Shown: piece after piece, positions 49,053 to 56,613 of the stretch
Numbering within the stretch: position 1 is the stretch's first letter
Layout: every line of letters begins with the position of its first letter
DNA from: Opitutus sp. GAS368
GTDB taxonomy: Bacteria > Verrucomicrobiota > Verrucomicrobiia > Opitutales > Opitutaceae
Assembly (NCBI GenBank): GCA_945903545.1
Contig: CAMDOO010000008.1
Location: 1 to 57,923 of the forward strand
Length of the DNA stretch: 57,923 bases
Reading direction: 5' to 3'
Notes under the pieces: generated by a model
The model's input: only the letters and a program-made list of their open reading frames with translations
Databases searched by the model: none
What the model was told of the DNA's origin: nothing
Made by a program: the position numbers and the translations under genes

Positions 49053-50492
49053 TCAGAAACTCAGCTGCGTGCTATATGTCGCCCGGTCGGCCGCCGTCAC
49101 CAGCTCGCGCCACTTCGTAATGCCAAAGGGATTGTTCGAGCCGTAGTTGGCCAGCGACTCATCATAGTGGAAATTCTGGTTGCCGACCACCGTGATGGTC
49201 TTGGCCACCGCCGAGCCCCACAAGCCACCGCTGGTGCCACCGCCGTTGAGACTGAGGCTCGCAAAGGGCGCATATATGATCCCGCTGAACGCCCCGTTGC
49301 CACTGATGCTGATCGACTGCGGGGTGCCCAGGGCCGCGGTCGCCTTGGTGCCCCAGATTTGGAAATTCTTCGGCTGGTTCATGGTCGCAGCGGAACCGCT
49401 CCCGTTGATCACGCCATTCCCGGCCAGGCTCATGTCTCCCGCCCCATACATGGCAAGGTTGGCGCCGACATCCAGGGTGATCGAGGCGTTGCCGCCCAGA
49501 CTCACCGTCGTACCCGTCGTGTTGGTGACCCGCAGGACCACATCCCCTGAAACTGTGATCTGGTTCGCGACCGCGCCCGACAGCGAGATGCTGGGCACAT
49601 CGTAGTAGTACTTGCCGTCCGCCGCCGCGCTGTCGCCACCGCGGGGCAAAGTGATCGGTCCGGTGATCGCGGTCAGGGTGTAGCCGGAGGTTGTCGGCGC
49701 CGTCACATCATCCAGGCTCGCCGTGAAGTCCGAGGCCACGCGGGCGGGATCCTTGACGCCCGCCGCGGTGCCATAGGGGCCGACGCGGCCGGTGGGGCCG
49801 ACGCTGATCGCGGTGGTCGAGGGCCCGCCCACCGAGGCATAGCCGTAGATGTCGGCGTTCTGCACGGAGACGTCGGAGGTCACCGAAACGCTGCCCACGC
49901 TGCCCTTGTCGTGGGCCACGCCGGCGCTGTAGGGGATCGCGGCGGTGCCGGAGTTGTTGTCGGGGTCGGAATTCCAGCTGTCCACGCCGGTGTTGCCGGT
50001 GAAGGCGATCTCGTCCTTAGCCACCAAGCCGGTCGCAAAGAGCGAACGGCGCCGCAGCGTCACCTCGACCCACTTTTCCTGGGCGGGACCTGACGCAGTC
50101 GTGATAATCGACCGGGCCACGATCAGCGGCAACGGCGTCCCCGTTGAGTTATAGTCCTGCACGTACACCTTGATCACCGCCGTCGCACCATGCGGGAGCG
50201 TGAAACCGCTGAAGGGGCGCGTCGCATTGTTCCCGGTGGGCGTCCAGCCGGTCCAAGCCGAGGTATTACCCGCGGTGGCCTGGTTGAACGACCACACCGC
50301 CTGCTCCAATCCGGTGTCGGCCAGATTCATGGCCGCAATGCTGTTGAAGGACCGGTTCGAGAGATTGAGCGCGGTCGTGCTCATCTTGATGTAGCTGGTC
50401 AGCGAGATCGCGATGATGGCCGCAAAGATCAGCGACACGATCAGCACGGAGCCGCGCTCGGCCCGGCGCAAGAAGGAGGAGGAAGGGTGCAT
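49053..50492 (-). CDS. PilX-like pilus assembly protein, copy 1
   Basis: The 479-residue product has a PilX-type N-terminus: RRAERGSVLIVSLIFAAIIAISLTSYIKM, a prepilin-like helix without the usual Glu5. It continues to MNLADTGLEQAVWSFNQA. The large C-terminal part has repeated Gly-Asn-Gly strands (AGNGVING, SGNGAFSG, VGNQNFHYDESLA), which suggests a beta-helical domain like that of other verrucomicrobial PilX proteins. It would be a minor pseudopilin of a type IV or type II-like apparatus. It is the last gene of the second cassette and a paralogue of the gene at 51741-53138. Confidence 0.85.
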   Translation of the reverse strand: MHPSSSFLRRAERGSVLIVSLIFAAIIAISLTSYIKMSTTALNLSNRSFNSIAAMNLADTGLEQAVWSFNQATAGNTSAWTGWTPTGNNATRPFSGFTLPHGATAVIKVYVQDYNSTGTPLPLIVARSIITTASGPAQEKWVEVTLRRRSLFATGLVAKDEIAFTGNTGVDSWNSDPDNNSGTAAIPYSAGVAHDKGSVGSVSVTSDVSVQNADIYGYASVGGPSTTAISVGPTGRVGPYGTAAGVKDPARVASDFTASLDDVTAPTTSGYTLTAITGPITLPRGGDSAAADGKYYYDVPSISLSGAVANQITVSGDVVLRVTNTTGTTVSLGGNASITLDVGANLAMYGAGDMSLAGNGVINGSGSAATMNQPKNFQIWGTKATAALGTPQSISISGNGAFSGIIYAPFASLSLNGGGTSGGLWGSAVAKTITVVGNQNFHYDESLANYGSNNPFGITKWRELVTAADRATYSTQLSF

Positions 50493-50515: not shown

Positions 50516-51136
50516 TCAGGTGCTGGAGACTTTGTTGCGCATGATGAAACGCGCCGAGATCACGAGATTGGTGGCCGACACCACGGTCGTGCTGGTCCGC
50601 GAGGCCGTGAGGGTCAGTTGCAGTTGCTTCGTTTCCAGATCGTTGGTCGCCGCCCCGAGCACACCGACCTTGTAGCGGTCAAAACTGAACGAGGTGACGC
50701 TGGTGATCAGCTCCCGGGGCGTCGCCGTCGAGCTGGCCGCGCCGGTCTTGCGGCAAAAGGAGCGGTAATAGGGACTCGAGGTGCTCGTCTCGTAGTAATA
50801 CGTGACCTGGGTGTCGGGGTCGGTGGCCAGCACCCCCGGAATCGTCAGCGTGATGCTGTTGCCGCCGCTGTTGTTCGTGGTGTGGACCGTGTCGTTCCAC
50901 GTGATGTTCTTGGACATGCGCACATCCTCGGCGAAGGTCTCCAGGCCGCGCCGCGCCTGCGATTCCATCGTGATGTAATTGCCGAGATTGGCCGCCGTGC
51001 GGCCGATGAAGAGATTCGAGGACAACACCGCGGCCAGCAGAAAAGCCGAAAGGCCCGCGCTGATCATGAGCTCGACCAGCGTGAACCCGCCCGCGCGGTT
51101 CCGCCGGGGATCAATGCGTCGTGTAGAAGTAGTCAT
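50516..51136 (-). CDS. PulJ/PilW-type pseudopilin, copy 1
   Basis: The 206-residue product has a type III signal with cleavage at G|FTLVELMISAGLSAFLLAAVL, including Glu5. The body is beta-rich and ends SARFIMRNKVSS. It corresponds to the PulJ/GspJ class of minor pseudopilins. Its ATG lies inside the end of the pilV gene (26-nt overlap), and 23 bases separate its stop from pilX. It is a paralogue of the gene at 53138-53710 (ARRGLETF/ARRGLDQF, NDLETKQLQLTL/NDLETKLLQLTL). Confidence 0.87.
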   Translation of the reverse strand: MTTSTRRIDPRRNRAGGFTLVELMISAGLSAFLLAAVLSSNLFIGRTAANLGNYITMESQARRGLETFAEDVRMSKNITWNDTVHTTNNSGGNSITLTIPGVLATDPDTQVTYYYETSTSSPYYRSFCRKTGAASSTATPRELITSVTSFSFDRYKVGVLGAATNDLETKQLQLTLTASRTSTTVVSATNLVISARFIMRNKVSST

Positions 51137-51611
51137 AGAGTCCGTTCTTGCCGTAGTAGCTGCTGAAACTGAGCGAGTGGGAGGAGCCGTTGTAGCCGAC
51201 CCAGGTCACGGCCAGGGTCAGCAGCTTCATGTTCGTCTGGCCGCTGACGTCCGCGATCGTCCGGGTGCAGACGAAATCGCTGAGCATGTTCGCGGCGGTG
51301 GTGCTGTAGCCGGTGAAGGAGGAGTCGATGGCCACGTTGCCCGACGTCCCGTTGTTCGAGGCGGCCTGCAGGGCCGTGACCTGAGTCCAGTTGTTGAGCC
51401 GCAGGTCCTCCATCAGGCTCTGCAGCACCTGGGTCGCGAGCGTGGTGTTGCGCGCGTCATCCAGCGACTGGTAGCCACGCTGCAGCACCATGATCGAGGT
51501 GGAGACCGCGAGGAGCATCACCATGGCACCCATCGCCACCTCCAGGATGGTGAAGCCCCGCCGGAGGAAACGCCGGCCGCGGGCCAGGCTGTCGAGGGAT
51601 CGGACTTTCAT
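51111..51611 (-). CDS. PilV/GspI-type pseudopilin, copy 1
   Basis: The 166-residue product has the prepilin signal RRG|FTILEVAMGAMVMLLAVSTS with Glu5, and ends SYYGKNGLYDYFYTTH. It belongs to the PilV/GspI class. It opens the second pseudopilin cassette. The ATG at 51611 is preferred to a GTG three codons upstream. A 19-bp palindrome shared with the histidine kinase promoter lies 59-77 bases upstream. Confidence 0.87.
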   Translation of the reverse strand: MKVRSLDSLARGRRFLRRGFTILEVAMGAMVMLLAVSTSIMVLQRGYQSLDDARNTTLATQVLQSLMEDLRLNNWTQVTALQAASNNGTSGNVAIDSSFTGYSTTAANMLSDFVCTRTIADVSGQTNMKLLTLAVTWVGYNGSSHSLSFSSYYGKNGLYDYFYTTH

Positions 51612-51669
51612 CGACACCACGCTAACAGTTCCGCGGGAACCCGGTTAGGGCCGTTGGCCATGTATTACG

Positions 51670-51688
51670 GGCCTACCAACCCTAGGCC
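51670..51688. promoter_or_regulatory. 19-bp palindrome, candidate operator of cassette 1
   Basis: GGCCTACCAACCCTAGGCC: arms GGCCTA/TAGGCC, 7-nt spacer. The same arms, spacing and flank (TGTTCG versus TGTCCG) recur at 56595-56613 before the histidine kinase gene. It probably binds the adjacent DevR-like regulator (inference). Confidence 0.65.
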
Positions 51689-51707
51689 TGTTCGTGCCTA
51701 TTTGACC

Positions 51708-51726
51708 GGGAGCCCTGCCTGCTCCC
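51708..51726. terminator. short hairpin after pilX copy 2
   Basis: GGGAGC (51708-51713) and GCTCCC (51721-51726) with a 7-nt loop lie 14 bases after the stop codon at 51741 (minus). There is no U-tract, so it is likely to be weak. Confidence 0.4.
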
Positions 51727-51740
51727 AACCAGTCGGGGCT

Positions 51741-53138
51741 TCACCAACCTTCAAATCGGCCGAGGTCAACCGCCCGGTCGGCCGCGGACTGCAGCTCGCG
51801 CCACCGCGAAATCCCGAAAGGCGTGGTGGTGCCGGAGTCCGCGAGCGACTCGTCGTAATGGAACGAGGCATTGCCCGTCAGGGTGATGTCGCGCGCCACG
51901 ACCGAACCCATGATGTCGCCGTTGCCGACCAGGCGGACATCGCCATTAGGGGCGTAGATCGAGGTCTTGATCGCGCCATTGCCCGCGATCTGGAAGTCCT
52001 GCCCGCCCAGGGTCTGGTTCGTGCCGAAGATCGTGCACGAGATCGGCTGGGCGTTGGCATTGACCATGCCATTGCCGGCGATCCGGAGATTACCCTCGGT
52101 GTAGATCGTCAAGGTTGAGCCCGCCGGGATATTGATCGCGGCGTTGCCCGCCACGCTGATCGCCGTGGATCCCGAGCCCGTTGTCATGATCAGGGTCACG
52201 TCGCCCAGGATGGTCAGGCTCTGGTTGCCGCTCAGGGAAATGGTTGGCACGCGCCAGCGCGTCGCCGTGCCCGCCGTCCCCAGGGTCGTTCCAACCGAGG
52301 CCAGGAGCGTCCCATCGACCGGGGCGGCGACCAGGTTGAACTCCGCGCTGAAGTCGGTGGTGATCCGGTTCGAGTCCACCGCCACGTTGTCCGGGGTGCT
52401 CGCGCCGCGCACCGTGCCCTGCGATCCCACCGAGGGTTGCGCGCCGCCGGTCGCCACGGTGCCCCAGATGTGGGCCTGGTTGATGAGCACGGCATCGTTC
52501 GTCACCGCCGCGCTCGCAACGGAGCCGTGGTCGCGCCGCACCGCGGCCGAATACGGCACCGCCGCCGTCGCGGGATCGTTATCCGGGTCGGAGATCCAGC
52601 TGTCCACACTCGCGTTCGTCCCCGCGAAGCTGAGGCTGCGCCGCGCCACCAGCCCGGCCGCAAACCACGACCGGCGCCGCAGCGTGACCTCGATCATCTT
52701 CGTCACGGGCGTCGCCCCCGGCGGCGACACGGTGGCCAGCGCCACGACCTTCGGGTTCGTGCCGGTGGCGGGAGTGCGGTTGTCGACGTAGACCTTCACC
52801 GTGCCGGTGGTGTTGGCCGTGAATTGAAAGTCGGGAAAATTCTTCCAGGCCGCGGTGCCGTCGCCGCTCCAGCCCTGCCAGGCGTCGGACTGACCCGCGG
52901 TCGCGCGGTTGAACGACCAGACGCCCTCCTCCGTGCCGGCCTCGGCGAGGTTCAGCGCCGCCCGGGCATGGAAGGCCCGGTGCGCCAGCCGGGTCGTGTT
53001 GAGGTTCAGGCTCAGGTAGCTGCCGAGCACGATGGCGATGAGGGCCGCGACCAGCATGGCGACAATCAACACCGCGCCCCGTCGGGCGCCGGGGAACCCC
53101 GCACCCGGGGACCGTTGAGACTGGAAGGTCGCGCCCAT
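51741..53138 (-). CDS. PilX-like pilus assembly protein, copy 2
   Basis: The 465-residue product has the PilX-type N-terminus RRGAVLIVAMLVAALIAIVLGSYLSLNLN, then ALNLAEAGTEEGVWSFNRATAGQSDAWQGW. The C-terminal Gly-Asn repeat region includes SIYAPNGDVRLVGNGDIMGSVVARDITLTGNASFHYDESLAD. It matches copy 1 in order throughout (LRRRSWFAAGLVARRS/LRRRSLFATGLVAKDE, PFGISRWREL/PFGITKWREL). Its ATG overlaps the pulJ stop as ATGA. It is the last gene of the histidine kinase-led operon. Confidence 0.85.
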   Translation of the reverse strand: MGATFQSQRSPGAGFPGARRGAVLIVAMLVAALIAIVLGSYLSLNLNTTRLAHRAFHARAALNLAEAGTEEGVWSFNRATAGQSDAWQGWSGDGTAAWKNFPDFQFTANTTGTVKVYVDNRTPATGTNPKVVALATVSPPGATPVTKMIEVTLRRRSWFAAGLVARRSLSFAGTNASVDSWISDPDNDPATAAVPYSAAVRRDHGSVASAAVTNDAVLINQAHIWGTVATGGAQPSVGSQGTVRGASTPDNVAVDSNRITTDFSAEFNLVAAPVDGTLLASVGTTLGTAGTATRWRVPTISLSGNQSLTILGDVTLIMTTGSGSTAISVAGNAAINIPAGSTLTIYTEGNLRIAGNGMVNANAQPISCTIFGTNQTLGGQDFQIAGNGAIKTSIYAPNGDVRLVGNGDIMGSVVARDITLTGNASFHYDESLADSGTTTPFGISRWRELQSAADRAVDLGRFEGW

Positions 53139-53710
53139 CAGTTGGTCACCCGCTTGTTGCGCAGCAGCAGCCGCGAAGAATAGGCCCGCTGGTTGGCCGC
53201 CACCGTGGTCGCGCCGGTCCGCGTCACGCGCAGCGTCAGCTGGAGCAGCTTGGTCTCCAAATCGTTCGCCGCCTCCATGTCCGACGAGCCCCCCGAATCC
53301 AGGCGGTACCGGCGGAACGCAAAGTCGGAGGCCACCCCGCGGATGAGGGGGATCCTGGGCGACGTCGAGCTCGCGGCCCCGGCCTGACGGAAGAAACTCC
53401 CGGCGTCGTAGCCATAGGTGACGGTCGTGGAACCCCCGGAAGCCGGTACGGTCAGGGTGACGCTCTGCGCACTGTTCCAGTGGATGTCGCTCGCCTCGCG
53501 GGCCTCGCCCGAGAACTGGTCCAGTCCACGCCGGGCCTGGGCCTCCATCTCGCTGTAGTTGCCCGCGCTGAAACCGCTCCGCCCGATCATCAGGAAGGCG
53601 CTCAGTACGCCGGCCAGCACGAACGTCGACAGCGTCGAGGCGATCAGCACCTCGACCATCGTGAAACCGCGGACGCGGCGCGGCTCAGTGGGCGGTGTAG
53701 AAATAATCAT
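53138..53710 (-). CDS. PulJ/PilW-type pseudopilin, copy 2
   Basis: The 190-residue product has the prepilin signal VRG|FTMVEVLIASTLSTFVLAGVLSAFL with Glu5 and ends SSRLLLRNKRVTN. It is the paralogue of the gene at 50516-51136. Its ATG falls within the last codons of pilV copy 2, with exactly the same 26-nt overlap as in the other cassette. Confidence 0.87.
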   Translation of the reverse strand: MIISTPPTEPRRVRGFTMVEVLIASTLSTFVLAGVLSAFLMIGRSGFSAGNYSEMEAQARRGLDQFSGEAREASDIHWNSAQSVTLTVPASGGSTTVTYGYDAGSFFRQAGAASSTSPRIPLIRGVASDFAFRRYRLDSGGSSDMEAANDLETKLLQLTLRVTRTGATTVAANQRAYSSRLLLRNKRVTN

Positions 53711-54155
53711 AGAGTCCGTTCCTCCCGTAACGGGTGACCAACCGCGCGGTCTGCGGGCGTCCGTCGTGGCCGCGCCAGGTCGCGGCGAGGGTGATCTCCT
53801 TCATGTCGGTCCGGATGTCGCGGATGGTTCGGGTGCAGGTGAACCCTTCGCCCCCCAGGCCCGTCACCGCCTCCACCGCGACGGACGTCGCGCCCGCATC
53901 CTGCAGCGTCTGCAACTGGTCCCAGTTGCGGAGGCGCAGCCGTTCCAGCTCGGTCTGCATCACTTGCGAGGCGTAGGTGAGGTTGCGCGCGGCATCCAGC
54001 GCCTGGAAGCCGCGCTGCAGCGTCAGGATCGCGGTCGTGATGCCGAAGAGCATCACCGAGGCCGCGATCATCACCTCCAGCACCGTGAAGCCCCGCCGCC
54101 CCGCCCGGGGCGGGAAAGTCGGGGCGGACACGTCGGGCTGAGGTCGGACGGGCAT
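53685..54155 (-). CDS. PilV/GspI-type pseudopilin, copy 2
   Basis: The 156-residue product has the prepilin signal RRG|FTVLEVMIAASVMLFGITTA with Glu5 and ends TRYGRNGLYDYFYTAH, almost the same C-terminus as copy 1. The ATG at 54155 begins 12 bases after the response regulator stop; a TTG two codons upstream is less likely. It belongs to one operon with the two-component genes. Confidence 0.87.
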   Translation of the reverse strand: MPVRPQPDVSAPTFPPRAGRRGFTVLEVMIAASVMLFGITTAILTLQRGFQALDAARNLTYASQVMQTELERLRLRNWDQLQTLQDAGATSVAVEAVTGLGGEGFTCTRTIRDIRTDMKEITLAATWRGHDGRPQTARLVTRYGRNGLYDYFYTAH

Positions 54156-54167
54156 GGACAATCCCGC

Positions 54168-54842
54168 TCACTCCTTCGGCGCACCGGACTTCTGCACGTA
54201 GACGGCCGCGGCCTGCGACCGCCGCTTGACCTTCAGCTTCTCAAAGACGCTCACGAGGTAGTTTTTCACCGTGTTCTCACTGAGGGTCAGCTGGTCGCCG
54301 ATCTCCTTGTTCGTGCGGCCCTCGGCCACGAGCGCGAGCACGCGCCGCTCCTGCGGCGAGAGCACCGCGAGATCCACGCCCTCCGCCGGGTCGCCCCCGC
54401 GCAGCAGCCGCAATACCCGGGCGGTCACGTCCGGCGTCAGCACCGAGCGGCCGGCGGCCGCGTTCTCGATCACCTCCATCAGGCCCAACGGGTCGACCTC
54501 CTTCATCAGGTAACCCTTCGCGCCGGCGATCACCGCCTCGTAGACCAGGCTGTCGTTGCTGAACGAGGTCAGGATCAGCACCTGCGTCTCCGGCCGGTCC
54601 TTCAGGATCTGGCGGCACGCCTCCAGGCCCGAGCCGTCCGGGAGGCGGATGTCGAGCAGCACCACGTCGGGCTTGTGCTGGCGCGCGGCGGTGACGGCCG
54701 CCGCCGCCGTCGCGGCCTCGGCGATCACGGTCGTCGACAATTCATTGGCGTGGGCGCTGAGCACGGTGCGAATGCCGCTCCGGACAAGCGCGCTGTCGTC
54801 AACGAGCATGATGCGGATCGGTTTGGTGGCGGTTTTGGTCAT
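54168..54842 (-). CDS. NarL/DevR-type response regulator
   Basis: The 224-residue product has a receiver domain with acidic pocket D15/D16, phospho-acceptor D64 (VVLLDIRLPDG) and K114 (YLMKEVD). A LuxR-type helix-turn-helix follows: LSPQERRVLALVAEGRTNKEIGDQLTLSENTVKNYLVSVFEKLKVKRRSQAAAVY. The recognition helix and RRSQAAVY end resemble DevR/DosR. It is coupled to the kinase (ATGA overlap) and precedes pseudopilin cassette 2. It likely binds the 19-bp palindromes at 51670 and 56595 (inference). Confidence 0.93.
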   Translation of the reverse strand: MTKTATKPIRIMLVDDSALVRSGIRTVLSAHANELSTTVIAEAATAAAAVTAARQHKPDVVLLDIRLPDGSGLEACRQILKDRPETQVLILTSFSNDSLVYEAVIAGAKGYLMKEVDPLGLMEVIENAAAGRSVLTPDVTARVLRLLRGGDPAEGVDLAVLSPQERRVLALVAEGRTNKEIGDQLTLSENTVKNYLVSVFEKLKVKRRSQAAAVYVQKSGAPKE

Positions 54843-56467
54843 GATAATGATTTTGGGGGATTGAGAATCAGGGTCACATGGGTGCCGCCTCCGGGCTCGG
54901 AGCGGACTTGGAACTGGGCCCCGAGCTCGCGGGCGCGCCCCGCGAGATTGTCGAGCCCGCGGCCGCCGTTGCCCCCACGCTGCGCCGGGTCGAAGCCACG
55001 GCCGTTGTCCTCGATGGCAAAAATCGCGCTGTCCCCGTCGGACTGCAGGCTGACGCGGACCTCCGTCGCCTCGCCGTGGCGGAGCGCGTTGCTCACGGCC
55101 TCGCGGGCAAACTGCAGGGCATGCGCCCGCTGCACCAGGGTCAGCCGGGCCGCCAGCCCCTCGTCGATCGTGAGGACGGCGCTGACCGGCCGGATGCTCT
55201 GCATGTAGTCGAGCAGCGCGGTCACCGCATGGGTGAAGGTCTGCTCCCGCGCCGCCTCGGGTTCCAGCCCGGCGATGAAATTTCGCAGGTCGGTGACGGA
55301 CTCGTTCAGGACCGCGCGGGTCTGCTCGAGTCGGGCCACCGCCTCCTCCTGCTCGGGGCGCAGCAGCACCCGGATCCCCGCGAGGCCCATGCCCGCCGCG
55401 TAAAGCGCCTGGATCACGCCATCGTGCAGGTTACGCCCCAGCCGGGCGCGCTCCTCGAGCGTCCGCCGCAGCGTCTCCTCGCTCTGGCGCAGTGATTGCT
55501 CGACGCGGGCGCGCTCCGCGATCTCGCGCTGCAGGGAATCGCGCTGCTCGAACGAGGACTCCACCAACTGCGCCACGCGCCCGAGTTCGCCCTGGTCGGC
55601 ACGCAGCGGCGAAAGGGCCGCCGGGTCGTTCCGGCCGAGGCTCGAGCTCACCAATTCCAGCGGGCGCAGCACCCAGAGCTGGAGGCCCAGCGCGAGTGCC
55701 CCGACCACCAGCAGACCGAAGGCGAGGAAGATCCAGAGGCCCGAATCCAGGGACGCGAACGGCGCCGGCAGTTCCGGCACGGCGAACTCGGCCCGCAGCA
55801 CCCGCAGCGGCCGGCCCGCCAAGTCGTTCAGCGGGCGGGTGAGCGCCACCCGACCGGGCGGCAAACCCGGCGCCGCCACGCCGGTCTCCTGCAGGGTCAT
55901 AGTGCCCTCGGCGAGTCCGCCCAGCGTCCGCAGCCGCGTTTCGTCCCACCGACGCGCCACCAGCAGCCAACCGCGCGGCGGCTCCCCACCGCGCCGCACC
56001 GGGCCCGTGCCAATCTCCAGCAGGCCCGATTCGTCCCGCGCAAAAAAACGCGCCGTCGGCGCCCCCGCGGCCGCGCGCGTGAAGTCCGCCGCCGGCACCG
56101 GCAGCGCGGGGGCGCCCTTGCCCCCGGCCGTCGCGGCCAGCCAGACCGAGCCGTCCGGATGCAATACCCACGCCGCCGTCGCGTCGAAATAACTCAGGCT
56201 CGCCGCCAGCCGGGTGCGGGTCTCTTCGGCCTCGCCATTGAGCAATCTCCCCAACTCCTCGCCCTGCGCGTATTCAAGGACCAGTGCATCCCATTTCCGC
56301 GTCGTGATCGCCAGCCAGCGATCGAGCACCAGGCCGCGTTCCACCACGGATTCCGCGCGGATCGATTCCAGCTGACCCCGCTCCAGCCAACGGATCCCGG
56401 CCACCGAGGCCGCAAATCCTCCAAGCAGGAGTCCAAGCAAGATGAGAAAGCGTCGCTTGATGCTCAT
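54839..56467 (-). CDS. membrane sensor histidine kinase (HisKA_3 type)
   Basis: The 542-residue product has a first membrane helix (about 7-24), a CHASE-like periplasmic sensor region (25-243), a second helix (about 244-267), a HAMP-like linker and coiled coil, and the HisKA_3 dimerisation domain. The phospho-acceptor is H348 in GRNLHDGVIQALYA. The HATPase_c domain has AREAVSNALRHG and IEDNGRGFD. It senses an unknown periplasmic signal and phosphorylates the coupled regulator. The ATG at 56467 gives MSIKRRFLIL, a normal membrane-protein start. Confidence 0.92.
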   Translation of the reverse strand: MSIKRRFLILLGLLLGGFAASVAGIRWLERGQLESIRAESVVERGLVLDRWLAITTRKWDALVLEYAQGEELGRLLNGEAEETRTRLAASLSYFDATAAWVLHPDGSVWLAATAGGKGAPALPVPAADFTRAAAGAPTARFFARDESGLLEIGTGPVRRGGEPPRGWLLVARRWDETRLRTLGGLAEGTMTLQETGVAAPGLPPGRVALTRPLNDLAGRPLRVLRAEFAVPELPAPFASLDSGLWIFLAFGLLVVGALALGLQLWVLRPLELVSSSLGRNDPAALSPLRADQGELGRVAQLVESSFEQRDSLQREIAERARVEQSLRQSEETLRRTLEERARLGRNLHDGVIQALYAAGMGLAGIRVLLRPEQEEAVARLEQTRAVLNESVTDLRNFIAGLEPEAAREQTFTHAVTALLDYMQSIRPVSAVLTIDEGLAARLTLVQRAHALQFAREAVSNALRHGEATEVRVSLQSDGDSAIFAIEDNGRGFDPAQRGGNGGRGLDNLAGRARELGAQFQVRSEPGGGTHVTLILNPPKSLS

Positions 56468-56594
56468 GCAGACGCCCTGAAATCTGCGCCTGCTCCAATC
56501 ACTGCCAAGAGTGAACCTGCCCCTACGCAATTATCCCGCCCTTCTGCCCGGTGGATACTTCTACCTCTGTAAATCTGAAGCATGGGCCCATTCC

Positions 56595-56613
56595 GGCCTA
56601 TTAACATTAGGCC
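56595..56613. promoter_or_regulatory. 19-bp palindrome, candidate operator of the kinase operon
   Basis: GGCCTATTAACATTAGGCC: same arms and spacing as 51670-51688, with matching 3' flank TGTCCG. It lies 128-146 bases upstream of the kinase ATG. It suggests autoregulation and shared control of both pseudopilin cassettes. Confidence 0.65.

Follow-up and report, generated by a model that had tools for sequence, protein, structure and literature searches.

The 57,923-nt stretch of Opitutus sp. GAS368 DNA analyzed here (contig CAMDOO010000008.1, from now on referred to as the window) contains two copies of a 19-bp palindrome, GGCCTA-N7-TAGGCC, one located upstream of a sensor histidine kinase gene and one in front of pilV copy 1, the first gene of a pseudopilin cassette. 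This raises the question of what the shared element does and which protein might read it. The initial annotation had proposed a single autoregulated regulon in which the response regulator (RR) encoded between the two sites controls both cassettes. Comparison with related loci makes it probable, in our view, that the palindrome at 51670 is the core of a larger array of TAGGSC half-sites read by this DevR/DosR-like RR (54168-54842, minus strand), or by relatives from the same clade, and that the array would activate a near-leaderless pseudopilin promoter. The sequences compared contain the array itself, keep it at a fixed distance from a -10 box and link it to the RR clade. Genomes, contigs and loci are identified below by G, C and L numbers.

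Both palindromes are exact (51670-51688, spacer CCAACCC; 56595-56613, spacer TTAACAT), and their right flanks (TGTTCG and TGTCCG), their differing spacers and their gene contexts, all on the minus strand, are as first described. No further exact copy was found within the window. By a first-order Markov model fitted to the window, 0.0009 exact copies are expected in the window and 0.05 in the genome (3,083,619 bases), compared with two and three observed. When up to two mismatches are allowed, the window holds four matches against an expectation of 1.86, which leaves the exact form as the only unusual one. The third exact genome copy (C82:832-850) overlaps the end of an open reading frame (ORF) on another contig and looks incidental. 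A genome search for GSCCTA-N4-8-TAGGSC returned only five places: the two window sites, one match at a second kinase/RR/pseudopilin locus of the same genome (C16), and matches on C75 and C82 which, being placed in or at the ends of ORFs, look incidental. With three exact copies, the palindrome is rare in this genome. Chance palindromes or leftovers of a cassette duplication would be the simplest explanation for the pair, and the two cassettes are indeed diverged duplicates sharing stretches of 73-80% identity. However, the sites differ in their spacers, precede different genes (kinase and pilV), exceed by far the number expected per window and are conserved in relatives at a fixed distance from a -10 box. 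We consider this explanation most improbable; a chance origin is also contradicted by the distribution of a stricter form of the palindrome, by the link to the RR and by loci found later, all of which are described below.

The RR was sought in 100 genomes of the Opitutaceae, and 40 RR-centred stretches were examined first. The order kinase-RR-V-W-X, with V a PilV-like pseudopilin gene, W a gene for a prepilin-type protein and X a gene for a DUF7305 protein, recurs in relatives, many of which carry the palindrome in the gap preceding V. The exact palindrome occurs at four places in the 99 other family genomes, two of them on contigs with an RR orthologue and cassettes (G054, G039); the copies at G013:C1 and G094:C49, in or at the ends of ORFs, were taken as incidental. 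The strict form CRGSCCTA-N4-8-TAGGSCYG is found at seven places in the 100 genomes, of which six are kinase/RR/pseudopilin loci and the seventh lies inside a RecN-like ORF. In the 320 bp downstream of the RR stop codon, examined for 81 RRs with at least 46% identity after exclusion of identical RR hits and of loci with less than 200 bp behind the RR, the palindrome was present with 0, 1 and 2 mismatches in 8, 13 and 16 cases. For 21 more distant NarL-type RRs, the counts for 0, 1, 2 mismatches and none were 0, 0, 1 and 20, and random windows drawn from the same loci matched in 0.3, 0.9 and 8.5% of cases at 0, 1 and 2 mismatches. At one mismatch or fewer, 21 of the 81 clade loci thus compare with none of the 21 distant loci and 1.2% of random windows. 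A prepilin-like ORF follows the RR in 52 of the 81 clade loci and in none of the 21 distant ones. Although the genes downstream vary (VWX cassettes, other pseudopilins, cassettes with HpsA-like proteins), the box remains associated with the RR clade. Seven second cassettes, located behind an X gene or, in L054, far from the RR, also carry the palindrome at one mismatch or fewer (window, L044, L045, L047, L049, L054 and L055; the L054 copy lies 7.3 kb from the RR). The conservation before related pseudopilin cassettes that the regulon hypothesis called for was therefore found, and it follows the RR clade. Within the order, an RR match at E <= 1e-45 is confined to seven of 132 genomes, all from the family of the window. 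The best 80 of 573 relatives in a named collection are metagenome-assembled genomes of Verrucomicrobiota, then Nitrospira and a few others, with the Opitutaceae among these 80 represented by Opitutus, Lacunisphaera, Rariglobus and Didemnitutus.

Reading the gaps side by side revealed a further half-site, resulting in the model TAGGSC-N6-GSCCTA-N4..8-TAGGSC, in which the repeat made of half-sites 1 and 2 always measures 18 bp. This three-half-site model matches 11 of 47 RR-pseudopilin gaps with at most two mismatches and 14 with at most three, compared with none and 0.27% (at three) of 1880 shuffles; here and in the distance tests below, the shuffles kept base content and not dinucleotide content, and the family loci counted had also served to refine the box definition. 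Beyond the array comes a TANNNT -10 box, mostly 43-47 bp past half-site 3 and shortly ahead of the start codon. This box falls into the 40-49 bp bin after half-site 3 in 14 of 22 good-array gaps, most often at 44-46 bp (shuffle mean 1.75; no bin reached 14 in 1000 shuffles). These represent 22 of the 23 gaps with at most four mismatches, L057 having been dropped. A start codon follows 4-10 nt after TANNNT in 11 of the 22 (shuffle mean 2.3, maximum 7). In an alignment of 32 promoters, from which L057 and L058 were dropped, the spacer between half-sites 2 and 3 measures 4, 5, 6, 7 and 8 bp in 1, 11, 11, 8 and 1 cases, and many promoters show, by eye and by column information, a fourth half-site resembling GCCYCTA about 17 bp further downstream.

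The window site before pilV copy 1 (V1) carries every feature of the array: TAGGCA-N6-GGCCTA-N7-TAGGCC is followed by GGCCCTA at 17 bp, TAGCGT at exactly 45 bp and an ATG 7 nt later. On the minus strand, half-site 1 (51695-51700, TAGGCA, five of six letters matching) lies 6 bp upstream of half-site 2 (GGCCTA, 51683-51688) and forms the 18-bp repeat with it; half-site 3 (TAGGCC, 51670-51675), half-site 4 (51646-51652), the -10-like box (51619-51624, 45 bp past half-site 3) and the ATG at 51611 follow. Judged by this promoter position, the ATG is most likely the start of pilV copy 1, rather than the GTG at 51620. Across the seven second-cassette V1 promoters, four have TANNNT at 45-46 bp and three CANNNT at 46-47 bp. 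In a set found later in another collection, seven of 11 new RR-pseudopilin loci contain the array (0-5 mismatches over three half-sites) together with TANNNT at 42-47 bp; 15 of 38 Verrucomicrobiota loci had been left out as duplicates or as too short. The palindrome proposed by the initial annotation as the unit of regulation is thus a real, conserved core, but the functional unit appears to be the multi-half-site array, of which the palindrome is only the junction of half-sites 2 and 3. An RR dimer is likely to sit on the 18-bp repeat that half-sites 1 and 2 form, rather than on GGCCTA-N7-TAGGCC.

Inverted repeats in front of genes may also act in the transcript, as a terminator, attenuator or processing hairpin that, for example, limits read-through into the cassette. 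The sites often come soon after the preceding stop codon, their spacer varies in length as loops do, and half-site 2 is able to pair with half-site 1 or 3. Yet only 8 of the 32 promoters retain full Watson-Crick pairing (six pairs) of half-site 2 with half-site 3, making a hairpin unlikely, and counting G-U pairs raises this to 13 or 14 (five with one G-U pair, one with two). The downstream sequence is A/T-mixed and mostly free of a U-run (L061 has one); pairing and downstream sequence together did not yield the stable stem plus U-run of a Rho-independent terminator. The primary sequence is conserved between unlike neighbours, and no Rfam family matches the array, with one sub-threshold hit elsewhere. 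A -10 box lies at a fixed distance after the array and just before the start codon, by which the pilin mRNA would start beyond the array. The array is thus best read as a promoter DNA element and not as part of the pilin mRNA, and we rate an RNA hairpin as quite improbable.

We hypothesize that the promoter works as follows. A signal sensed by the adjacent kinase would lead to a phosphorylated RR dimer, which would bind half-sites 1 and 2 as an 18-bp repeat and then spread to half-sites 3 and 4. As half-site 4 would lie next to the -35 region, activation is suggested, though the RR may instead repress. RNA polymerase would start at the -10 box 45 bp downstream of the array, producing a nearly leaderless V1-W1-X1 mRNA.

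The identity of the regulator is consistent with this proposal. For the RR and its clade, sequence comparison gives DevR/DosR (3c3w) as the best PDB match (E 1e-43 with the single sequence, 2.5e-64 with a profile), and the DosR base-contact residues K179, K182 and N183, as given in PMC4082495, align with N190, K193 and N194 of the RR. Two of the three contact residues are thus kept, and all 21 RRs compared retain K193 and N194; the DevR/DosR-like assignment of the initial annotation is supported. No model for a named NarL-type equivalog, such as MadR, NarL or UvrY, reaches its cut-off among the 25 displayed out of 99 hits; MadR scores best of these with 159.3 of 300 bits. The variable position N190, which aligns with the DosR base-contact residue K179, coincides with half-site dialects: the short form TAGGCC occurs with N190 RRs and the long form TAGGGC with K190 RRs. 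N-type RRs have eight short and two other half-sites and K-type RRs five short and 21 other (Fisher p = 0.0013), a test that left out ties or loci with no half-site (13 of 23 N-type, 27 of 53 K-type) and six RRs with an unread helix. The N-type RRs form one clade on the RR tree, together with two RRs of unread helix, and the dialect change is therefore a single switch. We accordingly dropped N190/K190 as a proven cause of the dialect, the association representing one tree event. A third dialect, TAGAGGC, is concentrated in one RR subclade.

The array may alternatively be bound by a different NarL-type RR or a global factor. NarL-type RRs are numerous in the genome (26 matches to the RR in G000), and L152 of G020 combines a K-type RR with a short-form half-site, contrary to the dialect rule. 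Against this, the box follows the RR clade across unlike cassettes and even in front of a Nitrospira PAS-type sensor gene, none of the 21 other RR loci has the box at one mismatch or fewer, and even RRs of one genome differ in dialect according to their type: behind the N-type RR, G073, G096 and G043 have mainly short half-sites, and behind the K-type RR long ones, with ties on the N side in G034 and G094. Another binder therefore strikes us as unlikely, if less so than a hairpin.

Several observations weigh against control of the array by the clade RR. Behind the RR, 60 of the 81 clade loci, including that of the window RR, do not have the palindrome at one mismatch or fewer, and 44 do not have it at two or fewer, 20 of those 44 with a prepilin-like ORF next; some of the palindrome-less loci use other dialects, and some may have no box altogether. 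A spacing that ranges over 4-8 bp, as it does for half-sites 2 and 3, is unusual for a rigid dimer. RR and box are adjacent and hence co-inherited, and linkage alone is no proof of binding. The role of the variable residue is likewise not proved by a correlation of RR type and half-site that amounts to a single switch on the tree. In the later-found set, four of the 11 loci fail (L213, L231, L242, L256), the set had no shuffled control of its own, and some members are closely related to loci already used. Only 25 of 82 V genes combine half-sites 2 and 3 (at most two mismatches) with a -10 box (TANNNT or CANNNT) at 42-48 bp, though this compares with 55 of 4000 random windows (1.4%); VWX cassettes distant from RR genes mostly fail this test. 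Finally, the kinase site of the window lacks half-sites 1 and 4, and TANNNT is absent from the 170 bp that follow.

This last point bears on autoregulation. An 18-bp inverted repeat, within the size range of NarL/FixJ-type target sites (about 18-20 bp) and upstream of a -10-like box, is present at V1 and absent from the window kinase site (56595-56613, minus strand), which consists of half-sites 2 and 3 only. Among the 26 kinase genes whose start was usable, five are preceded by the palindrome in exact form or with one mismatch (window, L044, L045, L048, L060). In L044, L045 and L048, where the palindrome is exact, exact and one mismatch away, it is accompanied by a sequence resembling half-site 4 and by TANNNT at 44-45 bp; of half-site 1, L044 has a clear copy and L045 a partial one, while that of L048 is shifted out of register by one base. 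Within the family, the kinase-RR operon may thus plausibly be under direct control, but support for this in the window copy is poor; here the palindrome at 56595 would represent a reduced copy through which the RR may influence its own kinase-RR-V2W2X2 operon. From the idea of one autoregulated regulon over both cassettes, the full array at V1 remains, while autoregulation is weakly supported, with five of 26 kinase genes and the reduced window site. The upstream regions of kinase or RR genes in L044, L045, L046, L050, L053 and L059 also share, ahead of the kinase, a conserved stretch resembling a divergent rpsT-like start (MANTKSAIK, by eye); the window kinase, unlike these relatives, adjoins a ligA-like gene.

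At the locus of the second clade RR of the genome, on contig C16, the V gene is preceded by TAGGCC-N6-GGCCCC-N6-TAGGGC with a -10 box at 45 bp, and another array was seen by eye before the first pseudopilin-like ORF. A 276-aa ORF of this locus (L075:7227-8057), with a pseudopilin-like start and an HpsA-like end (below cut-off), points to a truncated or fused cassette gene preceded by an array of its own. Outside the phylum, a related GGCTCTA/TAGRGGC box at one mismatch or fewer accompanies 10 of 32 Nitrospira RR loci (control about 1%; one of 33 loci dropped), 12-13 bp after the RR stop codon in eight of the 10; ten of these loci had already been inspected when the dialect was defined, so the count was not blind. 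The next gene where read (L214, L219, L226, L228) mostly encodes, by eye, a PAS-type sensor and not a pilin, as confirmed by Pfam for L214. In L214, L217, L219, L225, L226 and L228, a conserved ATTYGGCTCTA-N6/7-TAGRGRCAAAA box lies 13 bp after the RR gene. As a tentative and rather doubtful extension, Opitutaceae may contain several self-contained modules of kinase, RR, box and cassette, each RR clade with its own dialect (TAGGCC, TAGGGC, TAGAGGC), which would allow duplicated pilus-tip cassettes to be switched independently; the tip's own state may be what the kinase senses, and the regulator-box pair might have been re-used for a non-pilin target in Nitrospira.

One close known parallel is DevR/DosR of Mycobacterium, likewise a NarL/FixJ-family RR with inverted G-rich half-sites. 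The DosR motif is TTSGGGACTWWAGTCCCSAA, of the GGGACT/AGTCCC type. This type was not found at the array, which is built from TAGGSC, leaves 6 bp between its first two half-sites and has extra ones; its targets would be pseudopilins, whereas those of DosR are dormancy genes. AlgR is a LytTR-type regulator, in contrast to the NarL/FixJ-type RR and HisKA_3 kinase found here. FimS-AlgR of Pseudomonas aeruginosa nevertheless provides a precedent for positive two-component control of minor pilins, as it positively regulates the minor-pilin operon, and minor pilins were proposed to feed back, according to PMC5979040. The UvrY/GacA box (BarA-UvrY, GacS-GacA) is described in PMC4682653 as an 18-bp TGTAAG-N6-CTTACA inverted repeat with an additional half-site nearby at csrC, and has the same 6-N6-6 geometry as half-sites 1 and 2. 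It differs in half-site sequence and in that its repeats lie far upstream of sRNA promoters, and the passages on it in PMC4682653 do not mention a fixed -10 distance. Verru_Chthon (TIGR02598) and HpsA cassettes resemble the present ones as multi-gene pseudopilin cassettes: V1 is a weak TIGR02598 match, and cassettes behind K-type RRs in L071, L073 and L075 encode proteins with partial HpsA similarity. However, all these matches fall below curated cut-offs, and X1 and X2 are DUF7305 proteins. The system would be a new regulon and promoter architecture within the known mode of NarL/FixJ control via inverted-repeat targets; the open-access literature searched turned up neither a description of it nor a regulator for the multi-copy pseudopilin cassettes found in Verrucomicrobiota. 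For such cassettes, the half-site array, its 45-bp distance to the -10 box and the near-leaderless start supply a sequence-level regulon rule and a testable prediction in environmental bacteria that are not known as pathogens, and the natural RR-box pairs with differing dialects offer material for studying the insulation of paralogous two-component systems.

The minus-strand order of the locus is ligA (named by eye), site 56595, kinase, RR, V2-W2-X2, site 51670 and V1-W1-X1. Site 56595 lies 62 bp past the end of ligA, and the kinase start (56467) follows about 127 bp downstream. The kinase (54839-56467) contains HisKA_3 and HATPase_c domains, with CHASE4 below its cut-off. PF00072, PF00196, PF07730 and PF02518 all score above cut-off, identifying a NarL/FixJ-family RR with a receiver domain and a GerE/LuxR helix-turn-helix, also supported by the PDB match, and its partner HisKA_3 kinase. 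Cassette 2 has no box of its own and directly follows the RR gene: V2 (pseudopilin, 53685-54161) begins 6 bp behind it, followed by W2 (prepilin-type protein, 53138-53710) and X2 (DUF7305 protein, 51741-53138), both assigned by domain search. Site 51670 is placed between the X2 end at 51741 and pilV copy 1. V1 (51111-51611, its start set from the promoter) is PilV-like, scoring 24.0 of 52.2 bits against TIGR02523 (PilV) and 21.5 of 51.4 bits against TIGR02598 (Verru_Chthon cassette protein B), both below cut-off. It is followed by W1 (50516-51136, PF07963) and, behind W1, X1 (49053-50492, PF23981), the W proteins carrying the prepilin motif and the X proteins DUF7305, with V proteins giving weak matches to PilV models. 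At a related locus (L067:11432-16119), two ORFs behind a clade RR and near pseudopilin-like ORFs have very long Ser/Thr-rich (TSTSTS) tails.

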